Shown: in pieces, positions 3,834-63,791 of the stretch
Numbering within the stretch: position 1 is the first letter of the stretch
How the letters are laid out: every line of letters begins with the position of its first letter
NCBI GenBank assembly: GCA_037576195.1
Contig: CM075101.1
Coordinates: 37,386,001 to 37,450,000 of the forward strand
Direction of reading: 5' to 3'
From: Phytoseiulus persimilis
Lineage: Eukaryota > Arthropoda > Arachnida > Mesostigmata > Phytoseiidae
DNA: 64,000 nucleotides
Program-made: the position numbers and the translations under genes
The notes under the pieces: model-generated
Databases searched by the model: none
What the model was told of the DNA's origin: nothing
Seen by the model: the letters and a program-made list of their open reading frames with translations, nothing else

Positions 3834-4766
3834 TTATCTGATCTGGTTCTCGTCGGGATTCTCAGTTCCAAGAGCTTCCTTGCACACTTTCTTGAAAACG
3901 TCGGGCTTCCTCTGCAAGAGGGTCTTGAGTTTGCCCAGGAGACGCTCAAAAGCTTCTGTGTCGAGAAATGCCACCTCGCAATCCGTTTTAGCGGTACAGG
4001 TCTCGCTCCTTTTCCCTTTTGAGAGAAGTGCAAGCTCACCGAAATGACTCCCCTCCTTGAGAGTTTTTTTCTCGCCAGATTTGGTCTCCAGCTCCACTTC
4101 ACCTCCTTCGACGAAGAATATTCCGTCAGCCTTATCACCTTCTTTCATGATCTTCTCCCCTTCTTTGTATTTTCTCTGCTCGATTGCGTCGCAGAGTCGG
4201 ACCCGCTCATAATTTTCAACCGTTTCCAGCATGGGGACTGCCTCCAAGTACTCCATGTGTCGTTGTCTCCTCTCATAGGCCATTCTCACCACGACGCGCG
4301 TGTAGAGCGGGCGATCGAGCTGCCACAGCTTGCCATCGGTTGCCGCCTTCACGGTGGTCATGCGTTCGTCTCGATAAAGAAGGGCGAGCTCACCGATACA
4401 GGGGCTATCAGCATCATAACTGCCTGTTTCGTCTCCCAAGCCTTCTGCCCCATCATCGTCTTTCTGATAGACATCGAATTCGCCCTCTTCGACGATATAA
4501 AAAGTGTCTCCTGGCTCTCCCTGCTTGAAAATAGTATCGCCCGCTTTCACTTCCTTCAGAGTCATGTGACTCAGCGCCGCGGTCAATCTTTTCTCGTCGA
4601 GTTCTTTCAGGAATGCGGTCCTCTGGATTTTTTTCCGGAGCGACTCGAGCTGCTGCGGGGTCTTCTGCGGCGGTTCTGGCAGCGGCTCCTTGTCGGATGT
4701 TGGGTCATACACCTCTCCGTAGACCGTCTCCCGCCGGGCACGTTGTCTTCGGTTGGTTTTCGTCAT
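3834..4766 (-). CDS. PKA regulatory-subunit-like protein, copy 2 (complete, intronless)
   Basis: A 310-residue protein resembling the cAMP-binding regulatory subunit of protein kinase A. Residues 11-15 are RRETV, a kinase inhibitor/substrate site with a phosphorylatable Thr, as in type II subunits. Two CNB domains follow. The first cassette has Glu126 and Arg135; the second (FGELALLSKGKR) has Glu244 and Arg253. These are the residues that bind the cAMP phosphate, so both sites look able to bind nucleotide. Usual family length is about 370-400 residues. The missing part is the N-terminal dimerisation/docking domain, so this protein should be monomeric and unable to anchor to AKAPs. It is a tandem copy of the gene at 1-596 in the same orientation, and has a TATA box about 95 bases before the ATG. 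A single open frame suggests the coding region has no intron. Confidence 0.9.
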   Translation of the reverse strand: MTKTNRRQRARRETVYGEVYDPTSDKEPLPEPPQKTPQQLESLRKKIQRTAFLKELDEKRLTAALSHMTLKEVKAGDTIFKQGEPGDTFYIVEEGEFDVYQKDDDGAEGLGDETGSYDADSPCIGELALLYRDERMTTVKAATDGKLWQLDRPLYTRVVVRMAYERRQRHMEYLEAVPMLETVENYERVRLCDAIEQRKYKEGEKIMKEGDKADGIFFVEGGEVELETKSGEKKTLKEGSHFGELALLSKGKRSETCTAKTDCEVAFLDTEAFERLLGKLKTLLQRKPDVFKKVCKEALGTENPDENQIR

Positions 4767-4838
4767 TTTTCTCAGGATGCGCCTTCTTCTGATCTGCCGA
4801 CAAATCCACTTCCAAAACGTTGAAGCCTCTGCAAAGTT

Positions 4839-4868
4839 TCGTTGTCATTGCTTCAGAGCTTTATATAA
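4839..4868 (-). promoter_or_regulatory. Core promoter of PKA-R-like copy 2
   Basis: The minus strand carries TATATAAA (about 4868-4860) followed by GAAGCAATGACAACGA (4854-4839), roughly 70-100 bases before the ATG at 4766. The block matches copy 1 at 15 of 16 positions although the rest of the 5' leaders has diverged, which suggests selection on the core promoter. Confidence 0.6.
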
Positions 4869-9605: not shown

Positions 9606-10579
9606 GTTGACGTAAGCTAATGGCGGAACTGTTATCCTTAATCTGGCTCGGAGACAAATGCGTTGAATGATTCTCGCTGCCTCAACAGGAATAACGCGAA
9701 CTTTCCACACGTGAAGCAGTTGCTCCGTTCAGGATGAACTTGTCCGGCGTTCCTGGAACCGAAGTACTCATCATGATCGGTCGACGCCCAGGGGGAATTC
9801 TGTAGATCACTGAGATACCAACGGGGCTTACCTCCGGTTTTTTCCGTTCTTTCGATACTTAATTAGTTGGATGATAGCTGGAACAGACGGGACGCTCGTT
9901 CGGAGTGGCAGATGATCTCGCTCCGTTACGAAACACGGATGCTTTGGGTGACAATCTCCGAGAGAACCTCGAGATTCTGATCCCGACCCGCGCACCAGCA
10001 CTTGCCACTCTCACAAGGTTAGTGCGTGGTTGAAGGTTCGTGCAACACCGCGAATTGCGAAGCTCCATCGATGCTCGATTGAAGCAGTGAGCAGCCGAGG
10101 GGAGAGTTAAACTCCTCTCTCGAACTCCGATAGCACCTGATCGTACAGATAGCTCTACGACGTTTTGATCAGTCTCACTCCGATAGGGATAAGGGCTTTC
10201 GCCGAACTCCTTTTCCCCGATCCTCCCGAGAGTTTCGGCGATTTCAACACCGCCGGGAACTTTGGGTGGGCCCCGAATTATCACGTTAATTCGAAATGAA
10301 TAACTGTTCTCGGCATCCTGAAGTTGTTTTCTTAGAAGCACAACACAAAACCAGCTGATGAAAGAAGTCCGTTTTGTCCTCCTCATCATTCATATCTGCT
10401 ACGCGGTTCCTGCTCGACCGTGGAAAGGGCGGTTTTGCATTCGAGAGCGGCGGGCATTAGAAATTTTCGCTGAGCATTCTACATCCGGACGGGAAACTCA
10501 TTAGCAGGCTGGGGCTCGGTGTCTGCTTCATATGCATTGAAAAAGAATAGTCAGAGTTGGTAATATTTATTATATACGA
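9606..10579. other. Upstream of F-box gene 1; one exon-like segment
   Basis: A minus-strand segment at about 9833-9879 has an acceptor-like CTGTTCCAG before it and a GTAAGC donor after it, and reads IIQLIKYRKNGKNR. A minus-strand frame at 9859-10389 (176 codons) has length compatible with chance. Neither could be joined to a gene. Confidence 0.3.
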
Positions 10580-14414: not shown

Positions 14415-16199
14415 CTAATCTATATCCCACCCCAAGGGAGGCACAAGACCGGCGAAACTTTCAGAATAACATAGACTGCGTCCTACGGTACCTTGCGCCA
14501 AGCGCGCTGACCTGATATTCCGGAGAGAAAAATGGGTATCCTCAGAGTAAACCTTCTCGCACAAATAGCTATGTTTCGATTCTATTAGGAACATTCGCAG
14601 CCTTTTTATGAATCGTGAGTCTGGCGAATGCAGATGCATGAATTCGAGTCGTCGTATGATTTCTAGGAAATAATCTTGGAATTCCCCGCTGAATACTGTA
14701 TCGGTGAATCCCCCGACCCCGCTGCTGAGACAAACCTGTTTCAATTCTCTCCCTTCGACGAGAGCTTCCCAAACCTTCAGCAAGTGCAACTGGAAATCAA
14801 AACCTTCTAGTTTGAGATATCTGAGGTCCCTACATCGTCGGATGAATGCCCGCAGACCTGAGTAGTCGTTTTTCGCGTTCAAGCGTAACATCACCGTTCG
14901 GACCTTTGAGGTTCCCATGTTACTGTAAGCAGATGCTTCGAGATCGACGCCGCTGAGAGTCAACTCTTCAAGGTCTTCAAGCTTGGTCATGTCCACTAGG
15001 TTCAGACTCGTCAGAGAAGTCCTGCAGCGTGAACAGGACGACGTATATTCTCTAATGAAGAAAAATCCCTCCAAGAAGAATTTCTTCAAGGTGAGCTTCT
15101 GCAAAGCCTTGCATAGCTCTTCTTTATGGAGGGACATGATGTCTCTGTCGACGAGGCTCTCGGGGAGGAAAAAACACAGAGAAGACGCGATATCCTCGAG
15201 AGTTGGAACTGACGCGACCAAATCGAGGATGAATCTACTCGCGAAGCTGTTATGGCACCCCCTTAAATTAAGCTCCACCAGCGCGGTCGACCAACAGTTT
15301 TCGAACCTAGAGAGTGAACAGTTGATACTATAGACCCGAACCGCTCGAGGCGAACCCCAAGGTGATTTGAAAATCTCAGTGATGTCCCCGTCGGGAGGCA
15401 AATCAACGGAATGATACTGTCGCAGGAGCGAAACTTTGTCGATCCCCATATCTTCCCGGGGAGCCCTTCCACTCAGATGGCCATGCTCGTAAATGTAATA
15501 TTCTCGGACCCGAGCTATCCACTCTTCGATACCAGGATCGGTCTTGTTGGCAAAAATATGCTTTAGGAGCATTCTGACACGGACATTCGCTCTCGTGAAA
15601 AGACGAGTGCATATCACGGTATGTAAGGTGTTCCATCGCTCAGCGATCAAATTAGGCAACTCACTGAACAAAGTCCCCATCGTAACACCGAATATGTTCA
15701 CGTGGATCACTTCAATGGATGTGCAGGAATTTAAGAAATCCATGGTGAAAATCAGCTCTTGCTGTCGTGGTATAGAGTCGATGTAAACTTTCCTAATGGA
15801 AGCGAACCTGTAAGACTTTTCGAACTCGCTGTTTAGCGTGCACGACGCAGTGACACTGAAAGATTCTAGCTCTTCCAGGTCACACAGAATATCCAAATTA
15901 TGGAACCTCGAATTGATGACGTTTAGTTCCGTGATATTCCGACACTGCTTGATGACAGACTCCAACTCCTCAGAGCCTGAGCAACAACTGGACAGATCCA
16001 AACTTCGAATCGAGGATCCGTTCGCGTTCAGGCACTCTGATAGAGGTGGAACTATCCTCTTCAATCTCAGGGTCCTCAGCGAATTGAGCGAAACTTGTGC
16101 TAGCCGTGAGTTTGTTGTAGCGAAGGCGATCAGGGAGTCGATGTCCAAGGAGACTGCGATCCTTTGCAGAACTTCATTTGGAAGGTCTAGTAGGTGCAT
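14415..16199 (-). CDS. F-box / leucine-rich-repeat protein 2 (intronless)
   Basis: A 594-residue tandem paralogue of the gene at 7779-9605. Residues 1-40 form an F-box (MHLLDLPNEVLQRIAVSLD). Irregular LRR-type strands follow, for example SIRSLDLSSC, ITELNVINS and LEELTLSGVDLEAS. Residues about 222-247 (DPGIEEWIA then YYIYEHGHLSGRAP) are not LRR-like, yet are the best conserved part shared with copy 1. The C-terminus VGRSLCYSES and VPPLGWDID is also shared. The role is probably substrate choice for an SCF ubiquitin ligase; the target cannot be told from sequence. A splice-acceptor-like CTCGTTCGCAG sits one base before the ATG, so an untranslated 5' exon is possible. Overall identity with copy 1 is modest, so the duplication is old. 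Confidence 0.85.
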   Translation of the reverse strand: MHLLDLPNEVLQRIAVSLDIDSLIAFATTNSRLAQVSLNSLRTLRLKRIVPPLSECLNANGSSIRSLDLSSCCSGSEELESVIKQCRNITELNVINSRFHNLDILCDLEELESFSVTASCTLNSEFEKSYRFASIRKVYIDSIPRQQELIFTMDFLNSCTSIEVIHVNIFGVTMGTLFSELPNLIAERWNTLHTVICTRLFTRANVRVRMLLKHIFANKTDPGIEEWIARVREYYIYEHGHLSGRAPREDMGIDKVSLLRQYHSVDLPPDGDITEIFKSPWGSPRAVRVYSINCSLSRFENCWSTALVELNLRGCHNSFASRFILDLVASVPTLEDIASSLCFFLPESLVDRDIMSLHKEELCKALQKLTLKKFFLEGFFFIREYTSSCSRCRTSLTSLNLVDMTKLEDLEELTLSGVDLEASAYSNMGTSKVRTVMLRLNAKNDYSGLRAFIRRCRDLRYLKLEGFDFQLHLLKVWEALVEGRELKQVCLSSGVGGFTDTVFSGEFQDYFLEIIRRLEFMHLHSPDSRFIKRLRMFLIESKHSYLCEKVYSEDTHFSLRNIRSARLAQGTVGRSLCYSESFAGLVPPLGWDID

Positions 16200-17605
16200 C
16201 CTGCGAACGAGGAGAAGCGCGCCGGATCAGTTGGTGAGAATATGTGAAACTCATCGTCGTAGCAATGAGAATGAGATATGTCGGCGAGTGTGATCATCGA
16301 TCCTTACTTGTTGCGGAAGAAGACGATTGTTCCGTTCCGTTCGGCTCCACGAGCTCACGAACTACCCCAGACCTTTCCAGCTACCTTTCTCCCTGTTAAC
16401 TTAGAAGCCAACCAAGCAAGACGTTGATCTTACTCCAGGTCGGACCCGCGGGGCACACAATGAAATTCCCGCGGAATCTACTGATATTTACAACTTCCCT
16501 CACCGGAGGTTGTCAGAGGGTGGTTCGCATGAGGACCAGGTGGCTCCAAAGCACTTATCCTGGGACCATTCGCAGTCGGGAACGAACATATGCTCGAAAA
16601 ACAAATCAAAACACTTTGCACGGCTTGAATGGCGTCGTGAGAAAGGACAGAGAGCTGCAACTCTCTCTACTCAGTCTCTCCTCTCCTACACGGAGTTCTG
16701 CGTCGCGGTTCCGCCACATACATTCTGGGCGGACTTCTCAGAAGAAGCTGCTCGCGATCATTTCCAGAGAGTCGAATTCGGAGGCGGCACCGATTGTTCG
16801 AAATCTGCCAACTCTCGAATGCTTCTCAAAAAATTTATCTGATTCCGCTTTTCCAACCCGATTGTGATGAAACATCTTTCGCGGCATCACGTTATCCTTG
16901 TCTCACCCTCGCCCATCTCAGCCGCAATCCAAGTTTGGTTCATACGCGCTAGCAATGCTGGGCAAGAACTTTTTTTTTGTTATCGTCAAGACCCGAGGTG
17001 TAGAATGCGGAAAATACTCAAGCTTGGGTGCCAGAGTTCTAGCCTCCACTTAGTTTCTCCCTAGGAATGAATTCTGGGGGAAAAGAAGTGTTCGATTTGA
17101 GACAATATAGTCACAGAACGATCGATATCGGAGCTCTACTTCGGACACCAGAACCGTTCACGGTTGCGGATATGTCGAGCAGGCGAAGCTTCAGAGTCCG
17201 GAAAAAATCATCCGAAATCGTTAGAGGACCGATCATATGGTGACAAGGAACGACGTTTCCTCCGACGTGGTTCGCCGACTTCGAAGGTATCTCGAACAGG
17301 GCGAAGCGGGAGAGGATTTTTCGTGGCTCACGTACTTTGGGTGCTACCATCTTGCGGTTCGATCAAACAGGGGGCTCAATTAGTTTCTCCCGCTGTGCCA
17401 CATTGAAAACGCACAATGAGGTATACCTCGCTTTGTGAAATCTGACCGCCTCGGTCATTCACTCAAAATTGCTTCCCAATAGCGGCGCAAAGCCCGTTTC
17501 CGTGCGAGATACTGGGTGTCTGCCTGCGGAATCGGAATCGATCCGGAAATCAATCTCAGGAAGTCCATGAAGTGATGCGGTTTCTTATTAACATCTCAGC
17601 AGCAG
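16200..17605. other. Intergenic, no gene seen
   Basis: Between F-box gene 2 and the polyadenylation signal of the small secreted-protein gene I see only short frames (60-147 codons) with unremarkable composition, and no RNA gene. Confidence 0.35.
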
Positions 17606-38900: not shown

Positions 38901-41900
38901 CACAAAAACTCACTAGATATGTACGTAGCCGTCCTAATTCCCCTCACGGGTTGATTTTATCCTTTTATTCGGCGTTAATTTGCGCTCGGAGTTAATGACT
39001 GTGGCCAGCCGCGGCTCACCATCCAGCCGGCAAACGAGTCTTTTCTCCGTTGTTCCCATGCGCTATATCCACCGCACCGCACACTATTTGGGCGCTCGAC
39101 GCGAGTTCGTTTTATGATCACCTGCCGCTGCCCTACCGCCGCGGAATAAACAGCGATAAGCTACTGAGGATAAGCTCGCTCCACAGGGCCACGAGGCTTC
39201 GATGCCGCCTACCTCCGGCCCGTGCGTGACAATTTTCCGAACACACAAGTATAAACACGTTCACAAACAAACACAAACGAACGCCGGGCAGGAGGCGTGC
39301 TCTCCCCCGGGTCGCCAGGATCGGCTCCCAAGGCGGTTCTCACAACTACTTGTCGAGTTATTTATTGTGAGGCTGTTACCCTGGCGGGTGTAAGCTACCG
39401 TAAAGCCGTTGCGTGACGCAGCGTGCGAAACTGCGAGCCCTGTCGTGCCCGGGCGGTGTGTTGTGTTAGTCGTCGCTCGTTCCCATGCAACGCTTGCTTT
39501 CCAATTAGCATTTTTGGAAAATGGATTGAGGGAACCGCTGAGTAGTTGGATGCTCCCACCTCACGCTTGGCAACGTTCTCTTCTCTGGACGGGCAAGGTC
39601 TCTACTTTTCCCACGGGGGATCGGCGCTGCACCCAGGATTTCATGAGGAGCGTCAACATGGCCGAGTAAGCTACGAGGGAGCTTGAGACGAGATCGATGC
39701 ATTGCTTGTTTGTTACTCCGTGACCAATGGGCTGACGCTGAGGGAGTCGCTGTGGAAACGGAGAGCGAGCCTGGACTTATCAGTGGTACTCCGATGGCGG
39801 TAGGAACAACGCCTCGTGCGAAGCCCGCTCGATACATTAAGGAAGAAGCTGTGGGAAGAAGCAGCGCTCTATGGCAGTCGCGTCGAACTCAATGTGATTC
39901 CCGGATCCACTGCGGCGTTCCATGTGGAGTCGCTCGAGGAGATTCCCAATGTGTGCGCGACCGGCGGAGTCAAACATTTCAGGTGGCGCCAAGGCATGGC
40001 TCGTCCATTGTTATCAAAGGATTTCCGACGCTTCGTCGCGATGTATTCTTCCCTTTCCATAGATGCCAGCAGAGTACCAGGCTAGAAAACAACGAAATCT
40101 GCGCCAGACACTCAGACGACACGCTCGGTCTTTGATCTCCCATGGGGGATACCGAATACGATTATGACACATCCAGCCACTCGTGGGTCGCGTCTCAATA
40201 GAATAGTTAGCTTTCGTGCATTCGGGCTTCTCACCCGTCTCTTCGAGTCTTGGATGGTTTTCCTGCGCCTCCGTCTTCGGATGGCCCCTCCCCGCTCGAG
40301 GGACGAGCGAAATCGGCGTAAAACACTCACATTCTATAGGAGAGTGGACACTGGCGTTGAACCCTGGTCCTTGACACACAGATCCATGCACTCATCGTAT
40401 GCAGACATAAGCGGCTGAGACAAAACCTTTGCAGTGACGTGCACGCAATCCCCAATGACAGCGCGCTCCCGCTCAACAAAATTCTACGTACCATAGTTTC
40501 AGTGAATTCTCTTGATTAAGCTGTATGGAGATACGTTCTCTCCAGATATTCGTCGCATGGGGGCGAATGCTCCCGCGAAATCTGGATTGGAGGTTGGATA
40601 GTCAGTTCAAGATGTTACTGTAAGACCTACCGAAAGCGAAGCTCACTCAGTTTTCGGATTCAATCCCTCGACATGCTCGCTCTTTATGGCTACAAGACAG
40701 GCGTTCAACCCCCTCGCCGGTTCAACGCAAAACGTCCGACGGTGACTGAGAAGATCAGAGTACTAAACAACAGAATCGTGTTTTCCTCCGTTTCAATGCT
40801 AGCGTCATAGACGTGTGCGCTCTCCTGCAATCCCGGACCCTGATCCCGGACGAATTCAGGTGGAGACGATGAAGAGGGCTACAGCGCAAACCCCGCGGCG
40901 CCCCATTGTCCCACTTCGTTGCCTCTCAGTCGAGGCCTCCCCACTTCGTTGGCGCCCACTCTCATGGAGGACCCTCGTAGCGTCAGAGTTTTTCGTTCCC
41001 TCGCTCATTTGCGCCACAATGATAGCCCAGAGTAGAGCGCCGAGTTTCCGCGCTGAAACCCCTCTATTCTGCGTCAACTCCAGCCATTCGGAAGAGACCG
41101 TAGTCCTGAGTCCTCCATCGTAGTTCCAACTGAGCCGCAGCGGAATTCCTGGTACGACCATCGCTGCTTGACGGCAACGAGGACGTCATTGCCGGAGGAG
41201 CGTATGATGAAATCTTTCCCGAGCGTCATGAGCTCAACGGGTCACGCTCGTTAAGCATCGGACAGAAGGCCTGTCGCATAAATCGATTCCGGAGTTGGAT
41301 TCTGTCCTGGTATCTCGATGGGACACACATGCGACGGGCGGCAGTCGTGAACGAATCCAGTTTCCCGCTCGCCGTGAATCTGCTACTGAGCCGGCGACCA
41401 AGTCCGACGTTGCGAGGTGCTTGCACTCCTTGTCCTGTGCTCCGCAGAAAAGCCCTGAGGATGATCGGGGAGAAGCTGCGCGGGAGAGGAGGAAGCCGTA
41501 ATTAATTAAAGATGAATCAGAGCTCAGACTTCTTGACTGGGTACCGCCGTCGTTGTTTCCCTGGATGCTGCTTCTGGAAGTTGCAAGAGCCCGAGACGCA
41601 GCATCGAAGGTCCGACTGAAAGGATTCCGCAGCTCACGCCAGCGATTTCGTTACAGGTGCTGTCGGTGGCCTGTGTGTTCAGCGTCGGCCTCGTCATCGG
41701 ATCGTCAGCGCGACGGCAGATCCAGAGGAACGTCACCCTCCACCAGAGCCATTGCGACCTCTTGCCCCGGGAACCCTATCAGATGAATGACAAAATTTTG
41801 AAGAAACTCATCGACTCAGTCAGTCGAGAGAACATCGAGAGCTGGTTGTGGTAAGTGCCAAGGGGCTGCCTCCAACGGACGGTGTTACGTGATCAGAATG

Positions 41901-44796
41901 TGAGTGGACCGAGACGTCGGTCTCTGGCTCCACCATCGCGGCAACTGACCGCTCCGGCCTCTCGTGGGTTTCCCACGAGTCTCTTACTGTGTAACATCAA
42001 TAATTCCGATAACTCATCCAAGACAAAACACATTGGGTGTGTTAGTTTGTTGGTCGCTCGGTCAGCCGGCAAACAGGAGAGAAGAATTCCGTTGTGTGCC
42101 TGCGGTGGCCGCGGGTCGATTCCAAAACCCTTTAAGTATCTTCTACAGAACGGCCGGGGGATTGGGGTATTGGAAAAGACATACTAGAGGAAAGAAAATG
42201 ACTTGCCGGCGACCGGGCCAGCTTCTTGTTGTCTCTTTCTTCTTGGGTTTTCCGACTGACAGACTTGACGGTTGCTTGGTTGGTCGGTCGCTCGTTCGTT
42301 CGTTCGAGTAAATAAAAAAGCTGAAGAGGAAGCCACAGCTTGGGAAGAGCAGCCGGAACGCGCCGGGGCGGCAAGGGACCTCGCGCAGCAATCTCCGATG
42401 ACTTGCACATAGCAATCACCTCGGCCGTATTTTCTCTCGGAACTCTTCCTCGCTGATTTCTCCATCCTCGCGAGCGGCCGCGCAAGACCCGCGTCTGCTG
42501 TAGCTCATCGGCTCGGCCTCCGAGGAATTCCCAAATCTGAGTTCCGATATGGCTTCCTCAGGCAAACGACTCGAGATTTCCACGTCGGCGGATCGGACAA
42601 AGGGTCTCAGCTGGCGCAGAAAATCAAAGCCACCTGGACGAGCCAGGAGATGAAAAATGTTCGCGTCGAGGTTTTCAGACCTTTATTGTCTTATCCCGAT
42701 ATGGAGCGAGCCAACGATGTCAGATTGACGAAAGGATCTCGCGTCATCTACCTCCTGAAGACCTCGGCTCTCGAGAGTCAACTCGGTAAGTCTTCGCTTA
42801 GAATACAGATCAGATCAATAGAGCTCAGCATAAATAGTCGTCGAGACTGTAAGCCTGTCAGCGCGCGTGCCTGCGTGTGTACGTGCCCCCGTCAATCCGA
42901 TCACGGCGGTGAAACTGCAAGAGAGCGTCAAATCCCGAGAAGGCCTAAAAAGTTGGGTCTCCCGTCGACTCCGGTTGCGAAGTCTCGGAAGTGGAATGGG
43001 AGCTGTTTTTAGACAAAAACGGCTCACTTCCTTCCCACTCACTTCCGTCGGAAAAGTTGGAAAAACTTTTCCCCTTGAACGGCGGGAAGCGGAAAAGCTT
43101 GAAACAGTGCCGTTCCGGGAAGAGTGATGAGGGCCAAAAATCAAAGCTCCGCAGTCCTTAGCTGAAATTCCATGCTGGAGGGGGCACGTTCCACTTTATC
43201 TCACTGACCTCTCGATCGCCCAGGGAGCAGCGCGGTGTTAGACCGGCCTTGCGGGTCTGTTGCTCATCCGCTTCGTTCCTCCCGAGTTGATTCGTTGCTT
43301 CTGCTTTGTTACAGAGACGCACCCCTATATGGCCTACTCGTCGCCGGGCAAGGTCCGGGGCAAGCCGGTGTACGTGAATTTCGGCCAGTCGGAGGACTTC
43401 GACGTCCTGAAGACGCGTGGTGTGACTCTGAACGGCACCATTGCAATCATGCGCTACGGCAAAGGGCAGACACTCGCTAAGATTAAACGCGCAGAAGAAA
43501 ACGGCATCCAGGGTGAGTGGCCGGCACGCCTCCGAGCAGACAACCGAAAATCCCTCGGAGACTATCACCACCGTATCTCACTACACTTGCTCTCGATACT
43601 TTTACTTACCTTGTCAAAACGGTGGACCTCCTCTCGGCTGTTGTTGTTCGTTCATTCGGTGCTGATCCATCGGCCGGATGTCGTTCGACCGAGCACTGTC
43701 CAAATGTCAAACTGCAGGTGTCCTGATCTACGCGGATCCGTTTGACACGGAATCTCTCGACACCGAACTCCCGAGCGGTCCAGCTGTTTCGAGCGACGCT
43801 GTTGAACGTGGCAACATCAAGTCGTTCCCAGGGGACCCCGTGACACCTTTCCTCCCAGCCACGGACGACATCTACAGAATGCCAAGGAGTGATGTCCAGC
43901 TGCCAGGGATTCCGGTGCAGCCCATAAGTGCTGAAGACGCGCAACACCTGCTTCAGTGAGTCATGAATTATATGCGTTTTCGTTTTTGCCTCCTCAACGG
44001 AAGCTGGCCGCAGCCACGCTTTCAGGCGCGCTGACAGACTGACTCTGAGTGAGAGGTGTGAGAGGTCCCAGGGGATGGGTGAGGGGGGCAACAACGACGA
44101 GGGCTCGGGGAAGGCGAAATGGGAGGGACCTGAGTGCGTCAAACAAAATGCCACTGGTCTTTTTCAACGGAACAACTCTCACCGCAAAGTGGTAGCTACG
44201 CTGGAACGGACTGCAACGGCCTCTTGAAGGTTACGCGTCGTTGATTTCCCGTCGAACAAGTTTCGCTCAGAGAGCAAATCTTCCCGTCGGCGGCAGTCTC
44301 TGGGTAACGTCCCTCGTCGTTTGTTCGCGGTTCTCGAAAAGCATCCCGAATCCGCGTTCTCGGCTCCGTCCGGCGCGGGCGGATGGGATCCCGCTCGAGG
44401 CAGCGACATGGCTGAAAGATTCGGAAACACAAACCGTTCAAAATGAGTCGTCGCCGATCGATTCGGACTGTGAGCGTATTATGGGCGTGACGCATGGACT
44501 GTCGGCGCTCTGGAGTTCGCCAACGTTAACGTTTGCATGAGAACCGTACTCGTGCAGTCAAGATGCGGGGAGTACTCGAATCAAGGGAGCTCGGACCACT
44601 TCAAAAAGTAGCCCCCGACTCCTATGATCGACGCTGGAAGAACACCGAGTTTCCGGGTGTGCAAACTCCAGGCACCGGCAACTGGGGCTCCTTGCCGGTC
44701 AGCAGAAAAGTCGAGTCTTTGTTGAGCCGATACGACAAGATAAAGCATCAACCTCGCCCCCTCATGAGCTTCCTCCGCCAGATGGGCGATTTTTGA
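32993..44796 (+). CDS. Candidate spliced gene with exons at 33.0, 36.2 and 44.6 kb, unknown protein
   Basis: Exon 1 (32993-33056) starts with an ATG in good context (ACAAGATGG), has an in-frame stop just upstream, and ends G|GTAAGT after MESTGDSNDRDEYFPPRLSTL. Exon 2 starts at 36157 (after CTCCTCAG) or 36130 (after GTCATCAG); both give the same phase. It ends at 36321 before GTAAGT and encodes charged residues such as SASETSEVREPEVEKDGQEN. A terminal exon at 44558-44796, after CGTGCAG, fits the phase and runs to a stop (SYDRRWKNTEFPGV, SLLSRYDKIKHQPRPLMSF). The joined frame is about 155 residues. The last exon lies inside an intron of the carboxypeptidase-like gene, so the link is uncertain: exons 1-2 might instead be the 5' end of that gene, and 44558-44796 a separate nested gene. 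Family not recognised. Confidence 0.35.
33057..36156 (+). other. Candidate first intron, GC-rich, no other gene seen
   Basis: GC-rich sequence with many long but compositionally poor frames on both strands (Arg/Pro/Ser-rich). Includes a GGC/GAC triplet run at 34537-34566. No RNA gene recognised. Confidence 0.3.
34537..34566 (+). repeat. GGC/GAC trinucleotide repeat
   Basis: Consecutive GGC then GAC triplets in non-coding DNA. Confidence 0.75.
37866..37896 (+). repeat. TA/TG dinucleotide microsatellite
   Basis: GTATAT and TATATATATATA runs with one CTG interruption. Confidence 0.85.
38664..38690 (+). repeat. GA dinucleotide microsatellite
   Basis: AGAGAGAAAGAGAGAGAGAGA followed by GATAGAG; GA repeats can bind GAGA-type factors, but no function can be claimed. 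Confidence 0.85.
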
Positions 44797-47700
44797 ATTA
44801 TTCGAGTTCCATGAAGTGAATTCCTAAAACAATGCATGGCTGATTCTAGAATCACTCGTTTGGAACCCGCAGGAGTCCCACAGGGAGGAGAGCGAGACTC
44901 CCGAGTGGGTAGATACCTCACTAATTCGAACCCGCTTCTTCAGGGGCATCGGCGGACCCTCCGCTCCAATCGAATGGCAGGGTCGACTCAACCTGTCGTA
45001 CAACATCGGGCCCGGCTACAAGGACGCTGCGGAAATGCAAGTATAAGAAAATCCTTTTTGATTCACGTTGTTCGCTACATTGATTCCGTTGGCACAACTC
45101 GCTGCGATTCGTCTGAAGCGAGTCTGAACGAGCAACAAGCCCTTTCGTGTTTTGATTCCATCAGTTCCAATCCGATCCCCGCGCGTTGCACTTTGAATGG
45201 CTCCCCGAACGCTGTCCATGCATCCCCGACCGCTAGAATCGCGCTGGCTGGAGGGAGGGCCAAACGTAGAGGGGACGCCGTGGGGGCGAACTGCTCTGGA
45301 GATGACTGCAATTTGTGCATCTCAATCATTCGAAGCCGGCTTCTTCTCCACGCTGGCTCTGCTTCGAAATCGATGACGCCGCTCGTAGCTCCCGAACGTG
45401 AGGAGCCCTTTCGCGTAGAGATGAAACTTCACCGGTTGAGGACGTGCGTGCAACTCTTGAGACATTTTCATTGTTTCGTTCATTCACCCGTTCAACTCCT
45501 GCGCGGAATCCGAGTTCTCGCCGCGGGGAGCGATCAGTCAGTAGTTCACTCGCAGCCACTGTCGTTGCTGTGCTCCGTCGTTTCCGCATCGAGCCGGGTT
45601 TTTTTATGGCCCAACAGTTCCAACGAGGAACGTCATTTCGATTCTCCGCCTCAGTGTAATTCGTCTATTTGCTGATGAGTTTGCAAAAACCAAACCTCGC
45701 TTCGTCCGCACAGAGTGCGTTTTCGTTCCGCTATCGGAAGCAAGCAACAATCCGCTTGCGAACGCTTATCACGGTTTGCTTCCCTGTCACGGGAAAAGCA
45801 TTGCGTAAACAATGTTCGCCGACCCTCTGTCCTTCTGTTCATGTGTCTTTGCGTTCGTCCGCTGGTCTTCCCTCGCCGGGTCGCAATGGTGGTGGTCGTC
45901 GCGGTCGTCCACTGAAGAAAACGGGCGACACAGTCTTGGAAAGCATTTTGGCACCACAATAACAGCGGCCTTATAGAGGTCCGTTCGTCCGTGTTATGGT
46001 CGGCAGTTGTTAGGCATCTGCCCGACGAGAAGGCCACGACGCAATTGCCCAACAGAGGTAGGTAACAGCTGCCCGCTCGAAAACAAAGCCCGTCCATCGC
46101 GGTGCCGACCGGAGCAAACCCGCAGCGCCCCTTCAGTCGAGCTGGAAAGATTCATCCCGGCCACGGTTTCGAGAGCCTTCCGGATCAACGAGAGCGGCAG
46201 CGGCCTCGATCCGACGGCCGGATCGTGATTTGCTGATGCTGGCGCGGTTCATTATACCGTGCTGCACGATTCGTTCTGCTTGTTGCTCGCTCCATCTTAT
46301 ACACATTTGCTCCTGCTTCCGTAATTCCCGGGCACGTTGCCGCGACCGTCGCTCCGCAGGTAACATATCACACTGATTAGAGGAACAAGAGATCCTAAGA
46401 AGCTTCGGCCACCGTCTCACATCCGTGCCCGTCCATCGCCCTGTCCGGATGTCGTCGCGTTTATTGGATAGAAGCGGAGTTGAGCACGGAATTAGGCACG
46501 GCGCGCGAGCGAGAGGGGAAAAATTCGCGCGTGTCCCGCTCCCGGCCTCCCGCGTTTCGTGTGACACTTAGCTCTGTAGGGGAACAGCCGTGTAGTGGTT
46601 CCCCACCTAGATCGCACGAGTTTGGGAATGTTTCCTTCATGGTACAAAACCTCTAGAATTCTGCTGTTCCTCGTTAGCGGACGGTTGAGAGGAGGAGGTG
46701 AGGATCGTGATTCGACTGATCGAGACCACGATCCTGAGAGCTTACGATAAATGTACAGGAGTCCGGTGCACCGTTTCGCTCCTAGTTAGAATCGATTATA
46801 GTGGTCAACGACGCCTGCGCTCCGGTGCTGATGGAAGTCTAGAAAACGGGACAAAGAAGAAAACTCTCCCGTGTGGGCTCCGTAATCTAGGAAAACTTCC
46901 ATGAGCTTCTCGGACGAGTGTTCGACGAAGCGCCGGCTGCGGGTCAGGGCTGCGGACGGTGGCGCGATTAGGGGTCGAGAATTCCGTACGTTCTTCCCAT
47001 CTCAAGATCTCTAGCACAAGCCGATGGCCGCGCCTATTTAGGAAAGAGCAAACCAGACAATGAAACACAGACGAGTGGCCAGGCAAACAGGACAAGACGA
47101 GGACCGGACAACAAACAAACCAACGAGCGAACGAACGAACGAACATTGGGGAACAGAGTAAATCTGGTTGGCGATAGAGCGTGGACCTAGTTCGGGGATG
47201 CTATTACGCCACTCGGAAGCTCGTCTTCAGCCAATATGTGGTTATGCCCATCGCCAGTCGTCTTTCCAGGGCTTTCTCTCCATCCGTATTGGTGCATTCC
47301 TTCGCACGATTGAGTATTCCAGTGTTGCAACGGAAAAATATCTTGCCAGGCCAGACGGAAAGGAGGAAGACCACGCAATGGAGCTTGAAGGAGACCGAAA
47401 GAGCTCGATGTCGTTTGGCGAAATCGGTTGTGCTCAAACTCGTGGTGAGCTCGAACTCGGCTGAAAACTGGCTTTTGCTTTCAGTGAAGTGCAACTTTCC
47501 TCATACAACCTGTTCCGAGAAATGACCATTTTCAACGTCATCGGAGTCATCCCAGGAACTCACGAGCCCGGTGAGTGCTCTCCATGAACGCAAGAAGAAT
47601 CCATGAGGAGTTTCAGGGTTCTTGGGTCGATTGAGAATCACTCGCCAGGAGCGTTGTGTGAAACTCAATCAGGCGGCTAGATTGGGAAAGGAAGTGCTCC

Positions 47701-50700
47701 GCTGAAGCCTCTCGGATGGTAGGGGCGGTCTCGCAGAGCTTTCTCCGACCCAGGTTCTTCCGACCTTTCTTCCCCACTGTTGTCACGGATTTCCCCCATT
47801 GTATCGTTGATCGAGATCCTGTTGTTCCTTTCCACAAGACCGATTCTTTGTGAAATGGCTGCAGGGAGCGATTCCGGTCCTGGGATTCCCCGTGCTAGAA
47901 GTAGACGCTCTTCCCGGGGAGCGTTCCCACTCAACCAGGCGGTTGGCGGCCTCGACGATGATGTAGCCATGCGAAAATGTTGATCAGCGCTGCAGAGAAC
48001 GTTTCGAGTGGTACGATTGTACGCAGCTTGCGGCCCGTCCCCGCTCCGTAACGTACGTTCGGAATACGGCGTTCAATGGGCTTGTTCGTCCAGCGGTCGA
48101 GCAAGCCGCTGGTCATACTAGTTTGCATAGGAAGTGTACAGCGCAAACACGGAGCTTCATTTTGCATACATATGAAAGTACAGCTGCGCAAGATTACCAA
48201 TCGCTGACCGGCTGGCGAGCTGACTGTCCGCTCCACCTGGCTCCCGCGCCGAATCTCGCGTCCGATCGTCTCCACGGTTACGTTTCGTTGAGCCGAATCT
48301 GTCCCGGTTCAGCTGCTACTGCAGCTTGCATGCGGCGGGACTTATCGGTGAACATGACGATAACGCGCGAGGGGAGAAGCGGCTGCCTTCTGCCTGCCGA
48401 ATCGATGAGTGCTCCTTTGTGATGAAGCATATATGGGCTCATGCATATACTCGGACACGAGAGCTGCATTCGCGTCGCCGTCATCAGTCGCCCGACAGAA
48501 TCGCCACGATGTCAGGTGTTCTTGGATTCGGGGCCCGAACTCAATCCAGGAGGAGCTACAGCGACGCGAACTACGAGATCGCAGCCGGAACATCGAGTCG
48601 TGTCGAGGAGCAGATAGGGTGCCCGTCCGTAGCGACTTCACTGATTTGCGGGCTGGCGGCGCGGGGATTGATGCTCGGATGGCCGGTTACAGCGTTCCGT
48701 ATTGCAACGCGTTTCATCAAATGTGTTTCATATTTTTCAGGTCGTTACATCATCATCGGTTGCCACCATGACTCGTGGACAAAAGGAGCCGGCGATCCAG
48801 GCAGCGGAATGGCCGTTCTGATGGAGGTCTGCTTCGCGACTAGAGAATTTTTCCATGATTATCCCGAATAGCGCATGCAGGAGAGGGATCATTTGAGCAG
48901 AAACAATGCATCCGAGCAATCTAATCCGTCGGAAAATGGCCGCCAGTAACCCCTGGTTTTCAGGTTGCCCGCATGTTCTCCGACCTCATCCGGATAGAAG
49001 GTTGGAGACCTAAGAGGACTCTGATTTTCGCTGCTTGGGACGCTGAAGAATTCGGCCAAGTCGGGAGCACGGAATTCCTCCAAAAACACTTCAGCGAACT
49101 CAGTCACAGAACTGTCGCCTACTTGTCCCTCGATCAAGCCGTAACCGGTGAGTTCGTCCGAGGAGGCATGCCGCTTGATCTCGCGTTTCCAACGGTTTTT
49201 ATACCGAATCTGCGTTCGGAAAATCAAGATTCCCCGAAGTATCTGCCGCGCGGATCCATTAGCTGCGATGTGACCCTCCGAATCTATTTGATTCCGAGCA
49301 TGTCGAGAACAAGTCGAACCAAAAGACGTCTCTGGTCAAATAATTAGGCTCGGAGCACAATGGAGACAATGAGGGGGAAATAGCGACGAGGAATTCTCAA
49401 CGGCCTCCAGTGAGATAACAAAGCTTTTATGTCCTCTGTATTATACGCGTGTGCCCGTTCCCGTCTCGACCGCGGAGCAGCCGCTTGTCCATCGGCTCGT
49501 GTCTCCCATTGGAAGAATAGCTTCAAGCATCCCGGTCGATGATCTGCGGCCCCGATCCGGCCCGGCCGTTGACTCGCCACATTTTCCTGCGAAACATCGA
49601 GACACAACTCACTGTTCGACCTCGGTGTTCTCAGAAGGTGCGGCGAACACGTGATGCGGTGTCCCTGATCAGCGGAACAGGAGGGAATTAAAAGTTTGAG
49701 CTTGTTCTGTATTCAAGCGCCATCCGCCAATTAAGGGCAGCTTACAGACGCTACTGAATAACTGAGTTCCATCGCAACGATACGTTCACGGAACGCTCAT
49801 GAGTGAATCGTAAACTCTGCGGGACGAGGGCTGCTCGTGAAAATGAAGCTCCTTAGAGTCCATTAGCCGTTTTTGGAACTACGGTCGTCGGAACAGCCGG
49901 CGGCTGACCAGCCCCACGGAGCGGAAGGAGAGCGTGGTCCTCGTCAGCGACATCAGTGCAGTAAAACACGGGTATGGTGGGAAGTCTGTCTCAGGAATCT
50001 CAAGAGCTGCGCGGATCGATTTCAATGCACCGCGTTCCAGGAGTGTCACTATACGAAGCAGTCAAACAGGCCGTGGTTTCCCAATCACTCAGTCAGGTCA
50101 CAAGGTCGCATCTGTTGCTTCGCAGGCAATCGCACTCTGCAGGTGATCGGCAGTCCGCTACTCCGACAGGTTCTGAGTGAGGCCGCTGAGAAGGTCCCAT
50201 CACCCGGAGAAGACCAAATTGCAAACTCCGATCAGAACAATAACCCTCCGCCGCAGCAGTCGTCCGGGACAACTGCGCCGCACCAGCAGGCCGAGAGCTT
50301 ATACTCTTCTTGGACGCGTGCACGACCCGCACTTTTGAACTCTCGACGGGGATCGGTGCCCGAAATAATTCCACCTGCTAGCGGAGCGGATTTCGTTCCA
50401 TTCTTCCAGCTGCTTGGCGTCCCAGTCGCTCACTTCCAATATGTGGCCAGGGACGGCTCCACCGATTATCCGCCCCTGCGTACGGTGTACGACGATTTCG
50501 ATTATATCGCCAACTTCACCGACCCGGGACAGCACGCAATGGCCGCGCTCGCTCAGCTCATTGCAGCGACCGCGCTCAAGCTCGCTGACACACTCCAACT
50601 GCCTGTGAAGGTGAGTGACGGCGAATTCTTCGTTTCTCCAGTAGGTTTATCCGCGGATCGTAGCTCTGACCCGATGTGAGCTCTCCGACTGGTGTCTGTT

Positions 50701-51519
50701 CCGTGTCCGTGCGAGTAGATGCACGTCGTCCGAGGGCGACGCGGAGCGTCATCGTTGCCCAGAGCTGCTCCGCTCCGAGCTCAAAAATTCCAACTCCCGC
50801 GTTGCAGGCCACCGACTACGCCGATCAGCTTTCGGCAGACTTCGCCACGTTCCAAAGGGTTCAAGGAGATTTCTTCAGGACGAATCACATCCGACTCGAT
50901 GCCTTGTCGCTGGCAGTCAAGGGTTTTAGCGCGGCCGCCAAGAATTTTCAAGAGACTTCCGACAGGAGCTCGAAGAGCGACAAGAGTAGGTTGCGTTCAT
51001 CTTGAGTTGACCTCCTTGGCAGCGAGTATCACCCAAACTCGAACCAAGAGAGCCGAGTCTGGTAGTCAACCTCAAATTTTTGTACGAGGACGTCTCGGAC
51101 CTTCTGTCGCTGCCGAGAACATGTATTCGTGCGAAGACTTTGATTCGAACGGTTTCGGTTGACGTTCTGTGGACTGCATCAGAACCACTTAAAGCCTCGG
51201 CTTTCCTGTTCCAGACATCCTGAGCACACTTGAGGAGTTCAACGACCGACTTCTGCAGCTCGAACGAAGCTTCCTTCTGCCTGCCGCGTACCCGCGCCAC
51301 TCGCACTCCAGGCATCTGCTCTACGGGCCCGACAACGACGATTCAACAAAAGGAACCTTGTTCCCTCATTTGGTGATGGCCGTGAGGCAGGCCCGAAAAC
51401 GACCCATCTCGCCAGCACTCAGCTACGTGCGTGAAAACCTCTCGTTGGTTCTCAACGCCATCCGGGCCGCGACCGGAATCCTCGACAAGAGTTTGCTGCT
51501 CAGAGGCGACCCGGTCTAA
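41512..51519 (+). CDS. Glutamate carboxypeptidase II (NAALADase/PSMA)-like membrane protein, probably inactive
   Basis: Twelve plus-strand exons join with consistent phases to 791 residues: 41512-41540, 41581-41850, 42562-42785, 43315-43512, 43718-43955, 44944-45036, 47485-47570, 48741-48826, 48964-49147, 50126-50610, 50808-50985, 51215-51519. Layout follows the PSMA/transferrin-receptor family: short cytosolic tail, one membrane span (residues about 36-52), protease-associated domain, M28 peptidase domain, helical dimerisation domain. Zinc-site residues kept are His388 (GCHHDSW), Asp398, Glu436-Glu437 (WDAEEF) and Asp465. The remaining ligand His is Arg588 (YPPLRTVY). The family's glutamate-binding SGRARY and NKY segments are also lost, so catalysis is unlikely; a receptor or scaffold role like the transferrin receptor is an inference. 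A Gln/Pro/Asn-rich insert lies near residues 500-525. Intron 45037-47484 uses a GC donor. Exon 1 is the least certain; a far upstream first exon is possible. Confidence 0.85.
42278..42306 (+). repeat. GGTC/GTTC tetranucleotide repeat in an intron
   Basis: GGTTGGTCGGTCGCTCGTTC and further GTTC units within the carboxypeptidase-like gene intron 41851-42561. The complementary GAAC repeat occurs at 47110-47144. Confidence 0.75.
44558..44796 (+). CDS. Coding exon or small gene nested in an intron of the carboxypeptidase-like gene
   Basis: An open frame of 79 codons lies inside intron 43956-44943, on the same strand. It can start as an exon after CGTGCAG (44558) or as a stand-alone 77-residue protein at the ATG at 44563 (context TCAAGATGC). 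Its composition looks coding: acidic and basic residues are mixed, with VAPDSYDRRWKNTEF, GTGNWGSLPVSRKVE and RPLMSFLRQMGDF at the end. It does not match the phase of the carboxypeptidase exon before it. It does match the phase of the exon ending at 36321. Family not recognised. Confidence 0.4.
47110..47144 (+). repeat. CAAA/GAAC tetranucleotide repeat in an intron
   Basis: ACAAACAAACC then CGAACGAACGAACGAAC within intron 45037-47484; partly complementary to the repeat at 42278-42306. Confidence 0.75.
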
Positions 51520-61053: not shown

Positions 61054-61135
61054 TGGCAGCGGTGGGGTTCGAACCCACGCCTCCGAAGAGACTGGTGCCT
61101 AAAACCAGCGCCTTAGACCACTCGGCCACGCTACC
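61054..61135 (-). tRNA. tRNA-Leu (UAG)
   Basis: The 82-base minus-strand sequence folds as a class II tRNA. Acceptor stem GGTAGCG pairs with CGCTGCC; anticodon stem CTGGT/ACCAG holds loop TTTAGGC with anticodon TAG; a long variable arm and the T arm GTGGGTTCGAACCCCAC are present. Discriminator base A. Confidence 0.95.
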
Positions 61136-61779
61136 TTGGTCCAGCAACGAGCTTCTGGATGACCTTAACATTTTGGGGCGCTGTCGCGGTGAATCTGATC
61201 CAAGAAGTAGTCAGAATTTCTCTGATATTGCCTATAAGTCACGACAATCTAGGCGGATATCCCAGTCTCCAGCCCAGGGTGATCAGTTGAAGACATTCTC
61301 GTGTGAATCAGCATGCGAGCAGGACTGTCAGGGGAAGAGAAAAGACAGTCCGTAATCGAGCGGAGCGCATGAGTAGCATGGAAGGCTCGCAGAGTACAAC
61401 CGTTTTTAATGTAGGCTTACATTCTACCGGCGAGGGTTCGCTTGTTGTGCCGGAAGCTAACCGCAACGAAACTGAAACCACCCAGGGTTGTGCTTTGCGG
61501 TACTGTCGACTAGCACTTATCACTCGCTCTGCCGTCAGCGGCTTGCTTCCATTATACTGGTCAATGATCAGATCGATGTGAAACGTAAGCCTACGGACCC
61601 ACTAGTTCAGCAGCTGAACTTGGCCCCGTGTTTTTTTCCGCCGGTGGTGTGGTAGAGTTTCTCGATGGATCGAGCTCTGATAATAATAAAATTCGTGTAA
61701 TTAACCGATTAGAGGCGGAGCTGAAGAACCCATCGAAACGCTTGTGACATCCGAGTTGAAAGATTTCAGCAAAAGTACT

Positions 61780-61851
61780 TGGAGATGCCGGGGATCGAAC
61801 CCGGGGCCTTTCACATGCAAAGCGAACGCTCTACCACTGAGCTACATCCCC
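61780..61851 (-). tRNA. tRNA-Ala (UGC)
   Basis: The 72-base minus-strand cloverleaf has acceptor stem GGGGATG/CATCTCC, anticodon loop TTTGCAT (TGC) and T arm CCGGGTTCGATCCCCGG. It is nearly identical to the plus-strand Ala gene at 62087-62158. Confidence 0.95.
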
Positions 61852-62086
61852 GTCGTCAGATGACAGCGCTCGAAGATGTTTTCCAATAGACTGCGCTGCC
61901 TCCGCTTCGAACTGTGGCTTACGCTGTTCCCGGTACGTTCGGCCACCTCTGCGTACTCTGGCCGAACAAATGAAACTGGGGACCGATTCTCCGATAGGAC
62001 CCGGATCTACAGACGAAAACCAGCGCATAGGATGATCTTGAGGGGTGCTCAGGACCGGATCGACTTGCCGCACTCGATGAGCGTAA

Positions 62087-62158
62087 GGGGATGTAGCTCA
62101 GTGGTAGAGCGTTCGCTTCGCATGTGAAAGGCCCCGGGTTCAATCCCCGGCATCTCCA
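62087..62158 (+). tRNA. tRNA-Ala (CGC)
   Basis: The 72-base plus-strand cloverleaf differs from the minus-strand Ala gene only at the first anticodon base (TTCGCAT, anticodon CGC) and one base in the T loop (TTCAATCC). Confidence 0.95.
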
Positions 62159-62411
62159 AATTTTGATTGCTCCCTCGAGCCTGTGCTGTTCAGCAGAAGT
62201 GCTTTTTAGCCCACATTTGTCACAAGATCTCTCCAAAACGCGCAGATTGGTGAGCGAGATATCGGTCAGATAGTCTCCATGAGCGCCATCTGCGCTTTTC
62301 TCGCATTCAGGCTCGGATTCGATTCCAAGGCTCGTAGAGTCATCGTAAGTGTTTCAAGGACCGTCGAAGAGTAATATGCGAGAACAGTTCCATGACCCAC
62401 ATCATCCACGG

Positions 62412-62430
62412 AAAAAAATAACAAAAAAAA
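62412..62430 (-). terminator. Pol III terminator of tRNA-Leu (UAA)
   Basis: Two T runs on the transcribed strand (TTTTTTTTT and TTTTTTT) begin a few bases after the tRNA 3' end. Confidence 0.7.
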
Positions 62431-62433
62431 ACC

Positions 62434-62517
62434 TGTCAGAAGTGGGGTTCGAACCCACGCCCTCTTTCGAGGAGCAGAGCTTAAATCTGCCGCCTTAGAC
62501 CACTCGGCCATTCTGAC
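62434..62517 (-). tRNA. tRNA-Leu (UAA)
   Basis: The 84-base class II minus-strand tRNA has acceptor stem GTCAGAA/TTCTGAC, anticodon stem GCAGA/TCTGC with loop TTTAAGC (TAA), a long variable arm and T arm GTGGGTTCGAACCCCAC. Confidence 0.95.
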
Positions 62518-63711
62518 TAGCTGTCCGCTCACGGCAATTTCTCTATAGACATATGCATGCATAGCTCGCGCGCGACAAAACTCGATATGTCATCGATACG
62601 AGCTGTAGGCATCACGACGCTGATATTCTTTCGTCACTCGTGGGTCTTCGGATATCTTCGAGTTGGATTCCAGCATACGAGGGACTGCTCCGTTAGAGCA
62701 CGATCTTCCAGTGGAAATCTTTCATTCGCCACGTCGTTGCCAAAGCGCCCTGATCAGTTAGCGTTTGGCAGGTTCAAAAGAACGGGTTGAAATCGGAGAT
62801 GAGAGAACGATGATGATGACAGTGATCACTGTTCAGCGCCAGGACAGACGTAGGACGCTGTTTTCATCGTATCGTGAATAGTGACTCATCTCAGAGGAGC
62901 CGACGCTGCAACACAGCGATCATGGCATCGGGTCTCGATGCAGGCTCAGGTGTGTTCCGGTCGGTTCATCTTGCTCCATCGAATCCTAGTCGAACTCGGT
63001 GAGTCTTCCCGCTTCTGTCTCGAGAATGCGGGAGGCATTCGCAGCATCCAAGAGCCGTTGGTCGCGGAACCGGACCTGGAGCTCCTATTGAGTTGCGCAT
63101 TCCAAGAAAGAGTGTGCTTCTTGGCGAGGGCGGCAAACTCATTCGGCACCCCAGTGTCACTTCGGCCTGACGCGAGAGAAAACCATATGCGGTCCGCTGT
63201 CGTTGCTGAGTTGGACGGGATGGTGCTGTCGGGCTTGGGACTGTGTTGACCAGAATGGCCGAGCCCCCTGCGCGAGCAGTACCATGGTACCTAATCATTT
63301 TATAAAAGTTTGGACACAGAGGGATCTAACGAGCAAGACGTATGCAAGACTCAAACGGATCATGAGCTTGGTTATGTTAGAAATGTGTCGCCTGTCAGTT
63401 GCGGAGCTTACACGCGTCCTGCCCTCAAGGAGAAGTGTCTTTTTCTTCGACAGAGAAGTTCGGTTGCCACAGGAACACCGAAGTTCTGCTCAGTTTTTGA
63501 CCATTGGGTATGGTTTCGGAATTCCTTGTTTGGCTGTTTCTCATCGTTCGCGGAATATTGGCGGAGATAATCCGGAGAAAATAAGAAGCATAGTGTTCCC
63601 CGCTTGGACGCTCGAACGCTGACTGAGTCAGTTGTTGCTTCATTCCAAACACGAATCGTCTCTATGTCATGATCTGGTCCACGGGGTTCGCGTTGCGGAA
63701 CGTTGATGAAA
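62518..63711. other. Between tRNA genes; no protein gene recognised
   Basis: A plus-strand frame (62881-63249) and an overlapping minus-strand frame (62946-63149, NEFAALAKKHTLSWNAQ) have some protein-like composition but no family match or clear splice context. Confidence 0.3.
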
Positions 63712-63718
63712 AAAAAGA
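63708..63718 (-). terminator. Pol III terminator of tRNA-Glu
   Basis: A T run (TTTTTTTT on the transcribed strand) immediately follows the tRNA-Glu 3' end. Confidence 0.7.
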
Positions 63719-63719
63719 T

Positions 63720-63791
63720 TTCCGACGCCGGGAATTGAACCCGGGCCGCCTGGGTGAAAACCAGGAATCCTAGCCACTAGACCACGCCGGA
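63720..63791 (-). tRNA. tRNA-Glu (UUC)
   Basis: The 72-base minus-strand cloverleaf has acceptor stem TCCGGCG/CGTCGGA, anticodon stem CCTGG/CCAGG with loop TTTTCAC (TTC), and the GGTTCAATTCC T loop with discriminator A. Confidence 0.95.

Follow-up and report, generated by a model that had tools for sequence, protein, structure and literature searches.

Gene A, the PSMA/GCPII-like gene of the window (the whole 64,000-nucleotide stretch of DNA analysed here, C1:37386001-37450000, from a genome of 181 Mb in 127 contigs), appears to encode a surface protein that has lost catalysis and would bind rather than cleave, in the manner of the transferrin receptor, a reading to which we give a probability of about three in four. 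The original prediction had proposed a pseudopeptidase on the basis of one replaced zinc ligand. At the level of sequence, four further findings strengthened this proposal: Tyr552 is lost too, the genome has two paralogues (B and C) whose zinc sites are damaged further, the A-B pair is under purifying selection, and whole-genome searches failed to find an intact GCPII-type gene. A, B, and C would thus presumably bind a ligand instead of hydrolysing peptides.

Gene Structure and Domain Organization

Gene A spans positions 41657-51519 of the plus strand and comprises at least 11 exons, which were delimited by matches to human GCPII and by splice phases (Table 1). It had been placed originally at 48741-50610, an interval that does contain three real exons, but that covers only a part of the gene. 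The eleven exons join into a model of 756 stop-free codons followed by TAA, and the gene structure described earlier as clean remains so over these exons, except for one GC donor and a missing first exon. A comparison of the DNA upstream of A and B did not reveal a first exon with the start codon and the cytoplasmic tail, as none of the 63 weak matches it returned (best E 0.008) was convincing. Nine of the ten introns between the known exons are GT-AG and one, at 45037-47484, is GC-AG. The donor of the latter reads GCAAGT, the form that GC donors usually have, and B presents GT at the same place; a GT donor tried at 45040 breaks the frame that the GC donor preserves. The transmembrane exon was also recognized in B, whose homologous exon was matched by tblastn at E 3.7e-10.

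The spliced protein matched PF04389 (M28, E 6.9e-24) and PF04253 (TFR_dimer, E 1.1e-15), both above the cut-off, while its PA domain scored 20.3 bits, slightly below the Pfam cut-off of 23.9. The domain set of the GCPII/TfR family (M28B), namely the M28 core, TFR_dimer, and the apical PA insertion, is therefore present in A, together with a hydrophobic exon upstream of the ectodomain that would act as an N-terminal membrane anchor and that is likewise found in B and C. A would be a type II membrane protein, in a presumed orientation, and the ectodomain carries glycosylation sequons (six in the whole model). The likeness to solved GCPII structures is not due to chance (phmmer E about 1e-101, obtained with a draft of the A model carrying four residues too many, close to the start and to the first junction).

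Table 1. Exons and catalytic-site positions of gene A (window coordinates; residue names in GCPII numbering) and location of its paralogues.
Feature	Position	Strand	Evidence or remark
Exon, hydrophobic (transmembrane) helix and stalk	41657..41850	+	AG 41655-41656; GT after 41850; in frame with next
Exon, first protease-like segment	42562..42785	+	tblastn human GCPII E 3e-5; splice phase; same exon in B
Exon, apical (PA) domain, first half	43315..43512	+	80% identity A/B, highest of compared segments
Exon, apical (PA) domain, second half	43718..43955	+	tblastn, splice phase
Exon ending at GC donor (GCAAGT)	44944..45036	+	Frame kept; B has GT there
Exon, M28 core start	47485..47570	+	Homologous exon in B
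Exon, His377 and Asp387 equivalents kept	48741..48826	+	Sequence, splice model
Exon, Glu424, Glu425, Asp453 equivalents kept	48964..49147	+	Pfam Peptidase_M28
Exon, Leu/Arg replacing Tyr552/His553	50126..50610	+	Alignment
Exon, helical domain; Lys-Gly-Phe at TfR1 Arg-Gly-Asp place	50808..50985	+	Alignment
Last exon, TFR_dimer domain, stop TAA 51517-51519	51215..51519	+	PF04253 E 1.1e-15, spliced protein; end of frame
His377 equivalent, kept	CAC 48764-48766	+	
Asp387 equivalent, kept	GAT 48794-48796	+	
Glu424 equivalent, kept	GAA 49045-49047	+	
Glu425 equivalent, kept	GAA 49048-49050	+	
Asp453 equivalent, kept	GAT 49132-49134	+	
Tyr552 position, Leu	CTG 50476-50478	+	
His553 zinc-ligand position, Arg	CGT 50479-50481	+	In frame, exon 50126-50610
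Paralogue B	C1:49.657-49.663 Mb		12 exons joined including transmembrane exon, ends in stop
Paralogue C	near C1:7.964 Mb		16 exons joined, hydrophobic helix, stop

Loss of Catalytic Residues

A passage of a study on GCPII states that Zn1 is held by Glu425 and His553 and Zn2 by His377 and Asp453, with Asp387 as the bridge, and that the E424A substitution abolishes activity while Y552I lowers kcat 80-fold (PMC8538779). Mapping this numbering onto the protein of the window bore out the core of the original prediction, since the codon CGT (Arg), in frame in its exon, replaces the zinc ligand His553, and the other four ligands (His377, Asp387, Glu425, and Asp453) are kept, as is the base Glu424. 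Moreover, Tyr552, the residue of the oxyanion hole, is replaced by Leu, a change that had not been listed earlier. A therefore departs from the residue set of active M28B peptidases, which comprises the five zinc ligands, Glu424, and Tyr552, at two adjacent positions.

Both of these residues are present in GCPII, GCPIII, and NAALADL1, and in 78 of 80 bacterial relatives, the remaining two (L094 and L097) being gapped there. These relatives were the best 80 of 305 and were read from sequence alone, so that residue counts among them do not imply enzyme activity. His377, Asp387, Glu424, Glu425, and Asp453 were kept in 80/80 in the alignment with A, although retrieval relied on patterns for the HxDSW and WxAEE motifs, which biases the counts of His377, Glu424, and Glu425 but not that of His553. 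An initial scan for such relatives, run from an alignment of just two sequences, had returned none from the bacterial genomes; the second scan found them. In the part of a C. elegans study that bears on this point, three GCP2 proteins keep all five zinc ligands (PMC10794815), which argues that the loss of zinc ligands is not general in invertebrates.

The original prediction had also drawn on the absence of the Arg patch and the Lys-Tyr pair of the glutamate pocket. Arg534, Arg536, Lys699, and Tyr700 are indeed absent from A; however, this is weak evidence of lost activity, because Arg534, Arg536, and Lys699 are absent from NAALADL1 too, and among the bacterial relatives they occur in 0/80, 1/80, and 1/80, respectively (two gapped). 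Across these alignments, the Arg patch and Lys699 mark substrate preference rather than activity, and their absence was rejected as a sign of lost function, even if the C. elegans passage, according to which GCP2 proteins keep Lys699 and Tyr700 (PMC10794815), speaks the other way. Tyr700 is kept in 77/80 bacterial relatives and lost in A. The Lys-Tyr pair is thus ambiguous and may really have been lost in A, if the ancestor was of the GCP2 type.

Paralogues and Genome Inventory

The A protein, searched against the whole genome, matched 21 places, of which nine fell in A, nine in B, two in C, and one was a weak match (C4:264722-264955, E 3.85) with two internal stops; a local tblastn around the latter, limited to E 1 or better, found nothing but a match of 14 residues at another place. 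All 15 places matched by human GCPII lay in A, B, or C, and TFR_dimer matched three, which corresponded to A, C, and, below the cut-off, B. No fourth gene and no intact GCPII-type gene was found in the whole genome with these three queries, on which the statement rests, and not on the Pfam M28 search, which missed B and C. Exons of B and C were within reach of the human query at 28-58% identity, so that an intact copy, if assembled, should not have escaped detection.

Both paralogues have a more eroded zinc site than A. B has Ser-His in place of Glu424-Glu425, Asp at His553, and Val at Tyr552. In C, His377 is replaced by Gly, Glu425 by His, Asp453 by Ser, Tyr552 by Phe, and His553, as in A, by Arg, and Asp387 falls in a gap, so that all five ligands are lost and only Glu424 is kept. 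His553 and Tyr552 are missing from A as well as from B, so they had probably been lost before the two genes diverged. C, read in locus L027 from 2235 on, has no GDPxTP stretch in its apical domain, and an additional insertion precedes its His553 region.

Besides A, the Pfam M28 search recovered three loci, namely a peptidase M28 locus (L028), which presumably resembles plasma glutamate carboxypeptidase, a Nicastrin/M28-like locus (L029), which we take to be perhaps nicalin, and a nicastrin locus (L030). Nicastrin and nicalin are M28-fold proteins of other subfamilies that are not known to be catalytic and that have a different membrane topology; they share the fold with A, but neither L029 nor L030 matched TFR_dimer. 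L029 lies on a small contig (C74) of exactly 75000 bases, which may or may not be host sequence. Another GCPII-type pseudopeptidase may be the vertebrate NAALADL2, with its degenerate catalytic residues.

Selection and Domain Constraint

Over 728 aligned codons, A and B share 57% protein identity, with a pS of 0.78 (dS beyond estimate) and a dN of 0.37. At fourfold sites with a shared amino acid, the third base agreed in 55/210 (26.2%), and the base frequencies of two independent sequences would give 26.2% as well. Such synonymous saturation despite 57% protein identity indicates long purifying selection on the A-B pair, a pairwise measure that by design does not divide the constraint between the two genes.

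The constraint is unevenly distributed. The first half of the apical domain exceeds the M28 core (68% identity) by 12 points, and the least conserved segments are the helical domain (about 45-46%) and the transmembrane segment with the stalk (44%). Among bacterial pairs with 50-65% identity (n=245, pairs that share sequences and are not independent), the apical minus core difference had a mean of -8.4 (sd 5.5) and a maximum of +7, and it was -26 for GCPII/NAALADL1; TfR1/TFR2 lay outside the comparison for the apical segment. This pattern is read as a shift of constraint from the catalytic core towards the outward-facing binding surface, although the shift alone is not proof and GCPII/GCPIII, too, have the apical segment above the core (84 vs 80, +4). 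The low conservation of the helical domain does not favour a conserved ligand there.

Relationship to Transferrin Receptors

Against solved structures, A scored 385 bits with NAALADL1, 382 with GCPIII, 344 with GCPII, and 212 with TfR1 (phmmer), while the order for B was GCPIII, NAALADL1, GCPII, and TfR1, and C had GCPIII first and TfR1 last of the four. NAALADL1 (a human aminopeptidase, 4twe), GCPIII, and GCPII (PSMA) have the same domains as A, in the same order, at 34-36% identity, but they keep the two residues that are Arg and Leu in A. TfR1 and TFR2 belong to the same family, share TFR_dimer, and have lost the catalytic site; TfR1, with 28% identity to A, changed five of six catalytic-site residues (Asp453 is kept), whereas A changed one of these six plus Tyr552. 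At the aligned helical-domain place of the TfR1 RGD, A has Lys-Gly-Phe, which speaks against binding of transferrin in the human way. The GDFFR string of the helical domain, considered as a counterpart of this RGD, aligns elsewhere.

The phylogenetic trees lean towards the transferrin receptors without settling descent. An unrooted tree of eight sequences left A and B unplaced, since its best version grouped them with the enzymes at 39/21 and grouping with TfR had an AU p of 0.41. The rooted trees had an outgroup of 12 bacterial relatives, drawn from the 80, with support given as bootstrap/SH-aLRT. With C included, A, B, and C stood beside TfR1/TFR2 at 85/81, but A+B beside TfR alone reached only 56/34, A+B with the human enzymes had an AU p of 0.065, and A+B with NAALADL1 alone was not rejected (0.22); for this tree the program warned of long branches meeting. 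Without C, A+B stood beside TfR at 92/94 (AU p for the enzymes, 0.039), and at 90/95 when seven catalytic columns were masked (0.046); with both C and TFR2 left out, the support was 88/93 (0.055). As regards derived sites, A/B share two with TfR and four with the enzymes, and TfR shares none with the enzymes. Membership argued from shared alignment phrases (LDxAVxG, PVQPIS) was rejected, as the trees do not settle descent. TfR ancestry of A and B is therefore possible, and the parallel with the transferrin receptor drawn originally holds as a presumed way of working, whereas common descent is neither shown nor excluded.

Five stretches of the genome matched transferrin, at one gene, and three matched ferritin, at two loci, and iron is one candidate cargo of A. 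No iron-responsive element reached the Rfam gathering score in the window, B, or C, nor did any at the ferritin loci, which leaves this search with no positive control. It is rather unlikely that A or B is a true arthropod member of the TfR branch that takes up iron carried by transferrin or secreted ferritin. The rooted trees, the near rejection or rejection of a grouping of A+B with the human enzymes, the TFR_dimer of a membrane protein, and the presence of both iron carriers in the genome speak for it; the weak support for A+B beside TfR when C is included, the surviving NAALADL1 placement, the long-branch warning, the unsettled unrooted tree, the derived sites and phmmer scores in favour of the enzymes, the Lys-Gly-Phe, and the missing iron-responsive element, with the reservation just given, speak against it.

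A passage of one paper states that Tfr orthologues are exclusive to vertebrates (PMC11094094, citing Lambert and Mitchell 2007), and an excerpt from another names a 'transferrin receptor, putative' that is strongly raised in fed Dermacentor marginatus (PMC7654163). In the parts consulted of two invertebrate studies, NAALAD2 is named as a possible iron receptor (PMC7034838, PMC12896564): the sponge protein is described as a TfR homologue of ancient origin whose mRNA carries an iron-responsive element (PMC7034838), and the clam protein was studied in iron metabolism (PMC12896564). Among the literature matches listed, outside which most subscription journals lie, there was no report of GCPII-type pseudopeptidases in mites.

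Proposed Mode of Action and Alternative Explanations

Following the example of TfR1, A would be an M28B membrane protein that no longer hydrolyses peptides. The loss of His553 and Tyr552 would remove a Zn1 ligand and the oxyanion-hole tyrosine, while the Zn2 ligands (His377, Asp453, and the bridging Asp387) remain and may hold one metal ion. The protein would dimerise through its helical TFR_dimer domain, as is usual in the family, and the outward-facing apical (PA) domain, together with the remodelled M28 cleft, would bind an extracellular ligand, serving uptake, display, or scaffolding as in TfR1. Inactivity, topology, dimerisation, and a surface binding role are all inferred from sequence and analogy.

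Residual catalysis is improbable but conceivable, because A keeps four ligands and Glu424 and could act as a hydrolase with one zinc, another metal, or a replacement ligand and altered chemistry; the loss of Tyr552, the additional loss of Glu424 and Glu425 in B, and an ancestor that was probably already defective argue otherwise. It is about as doubtful that A modulates proteases or peptides, for example as a decoy to which peptides bind uncut: the M28 core conserved between A and B and the largely retained zinc site of A would suit such a role, but the catalytic residues of the cleft differ between the two paralogues. A pseudogene or an assembly error is very unlikely. One GC donor, an unfound first exon, and the single base that separates the Arg codon from a His codon (CGT for CAT), which could be a sequencing error, can be cited in its favour. 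They are set against eleven exons that join stop-free, synonymous saturation at 57% protein identity to B, and a GC donor in its usual form; an error at CGT is unlikely, as Tyr552 has also changed and B argues likewise. A dead binding protein at the cell surface thus remains the preferred reading of A.

A broader scenario is conjectural and rather improbable. In this scenario, three receptor-like pseudopeptidases would have taken the place of all GCPII peptidases of this arthropod. Two of them or more would belong to the TfR branch, whose origin would then predate the vertebrates, and A and B would be the missing receptors for iron carriers, with the strongly conserved apical domain as the part that binds secreted ferritin or transferrin. 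A, B, and C may bear on how arthropod cells take up iron from transferrin or secreted ferritin, and, with pseudopeptidases as the only GCPII-type genes detected, they provide three named candidates for knock-down and binding tests. If they bind something else, peptidase activity would have been lost on this fold outside vertebrates as well, and the three genes would be useful for understanding how an enzyme becomes a binding protein.

Other Features of the Window

Two nearby reading frames with cyclic-nucleotide-binding matches (Pfam cNMP_binding) were observed on the minus strand at 3-677 and 3837-4844; they presumably resemble regulatory subunits of cAMP-dependent kinase and are perhaps a local duplication. 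The same strand harbors two long single-exon frames, at 7782-9728 (649 codons) and 14418-16226 (603 codons), with 38% identity over 611 aligned positions. The former showed weak, sub-cut-off matches to F-box and FBXL18 LRR, and the latter had no Pfam match. Finally, five tRNA genes, for Leu (tag), Ala (tgc), Ala (cgc), Leu (taa), and Glu (ttc), are located at 61054-63791.
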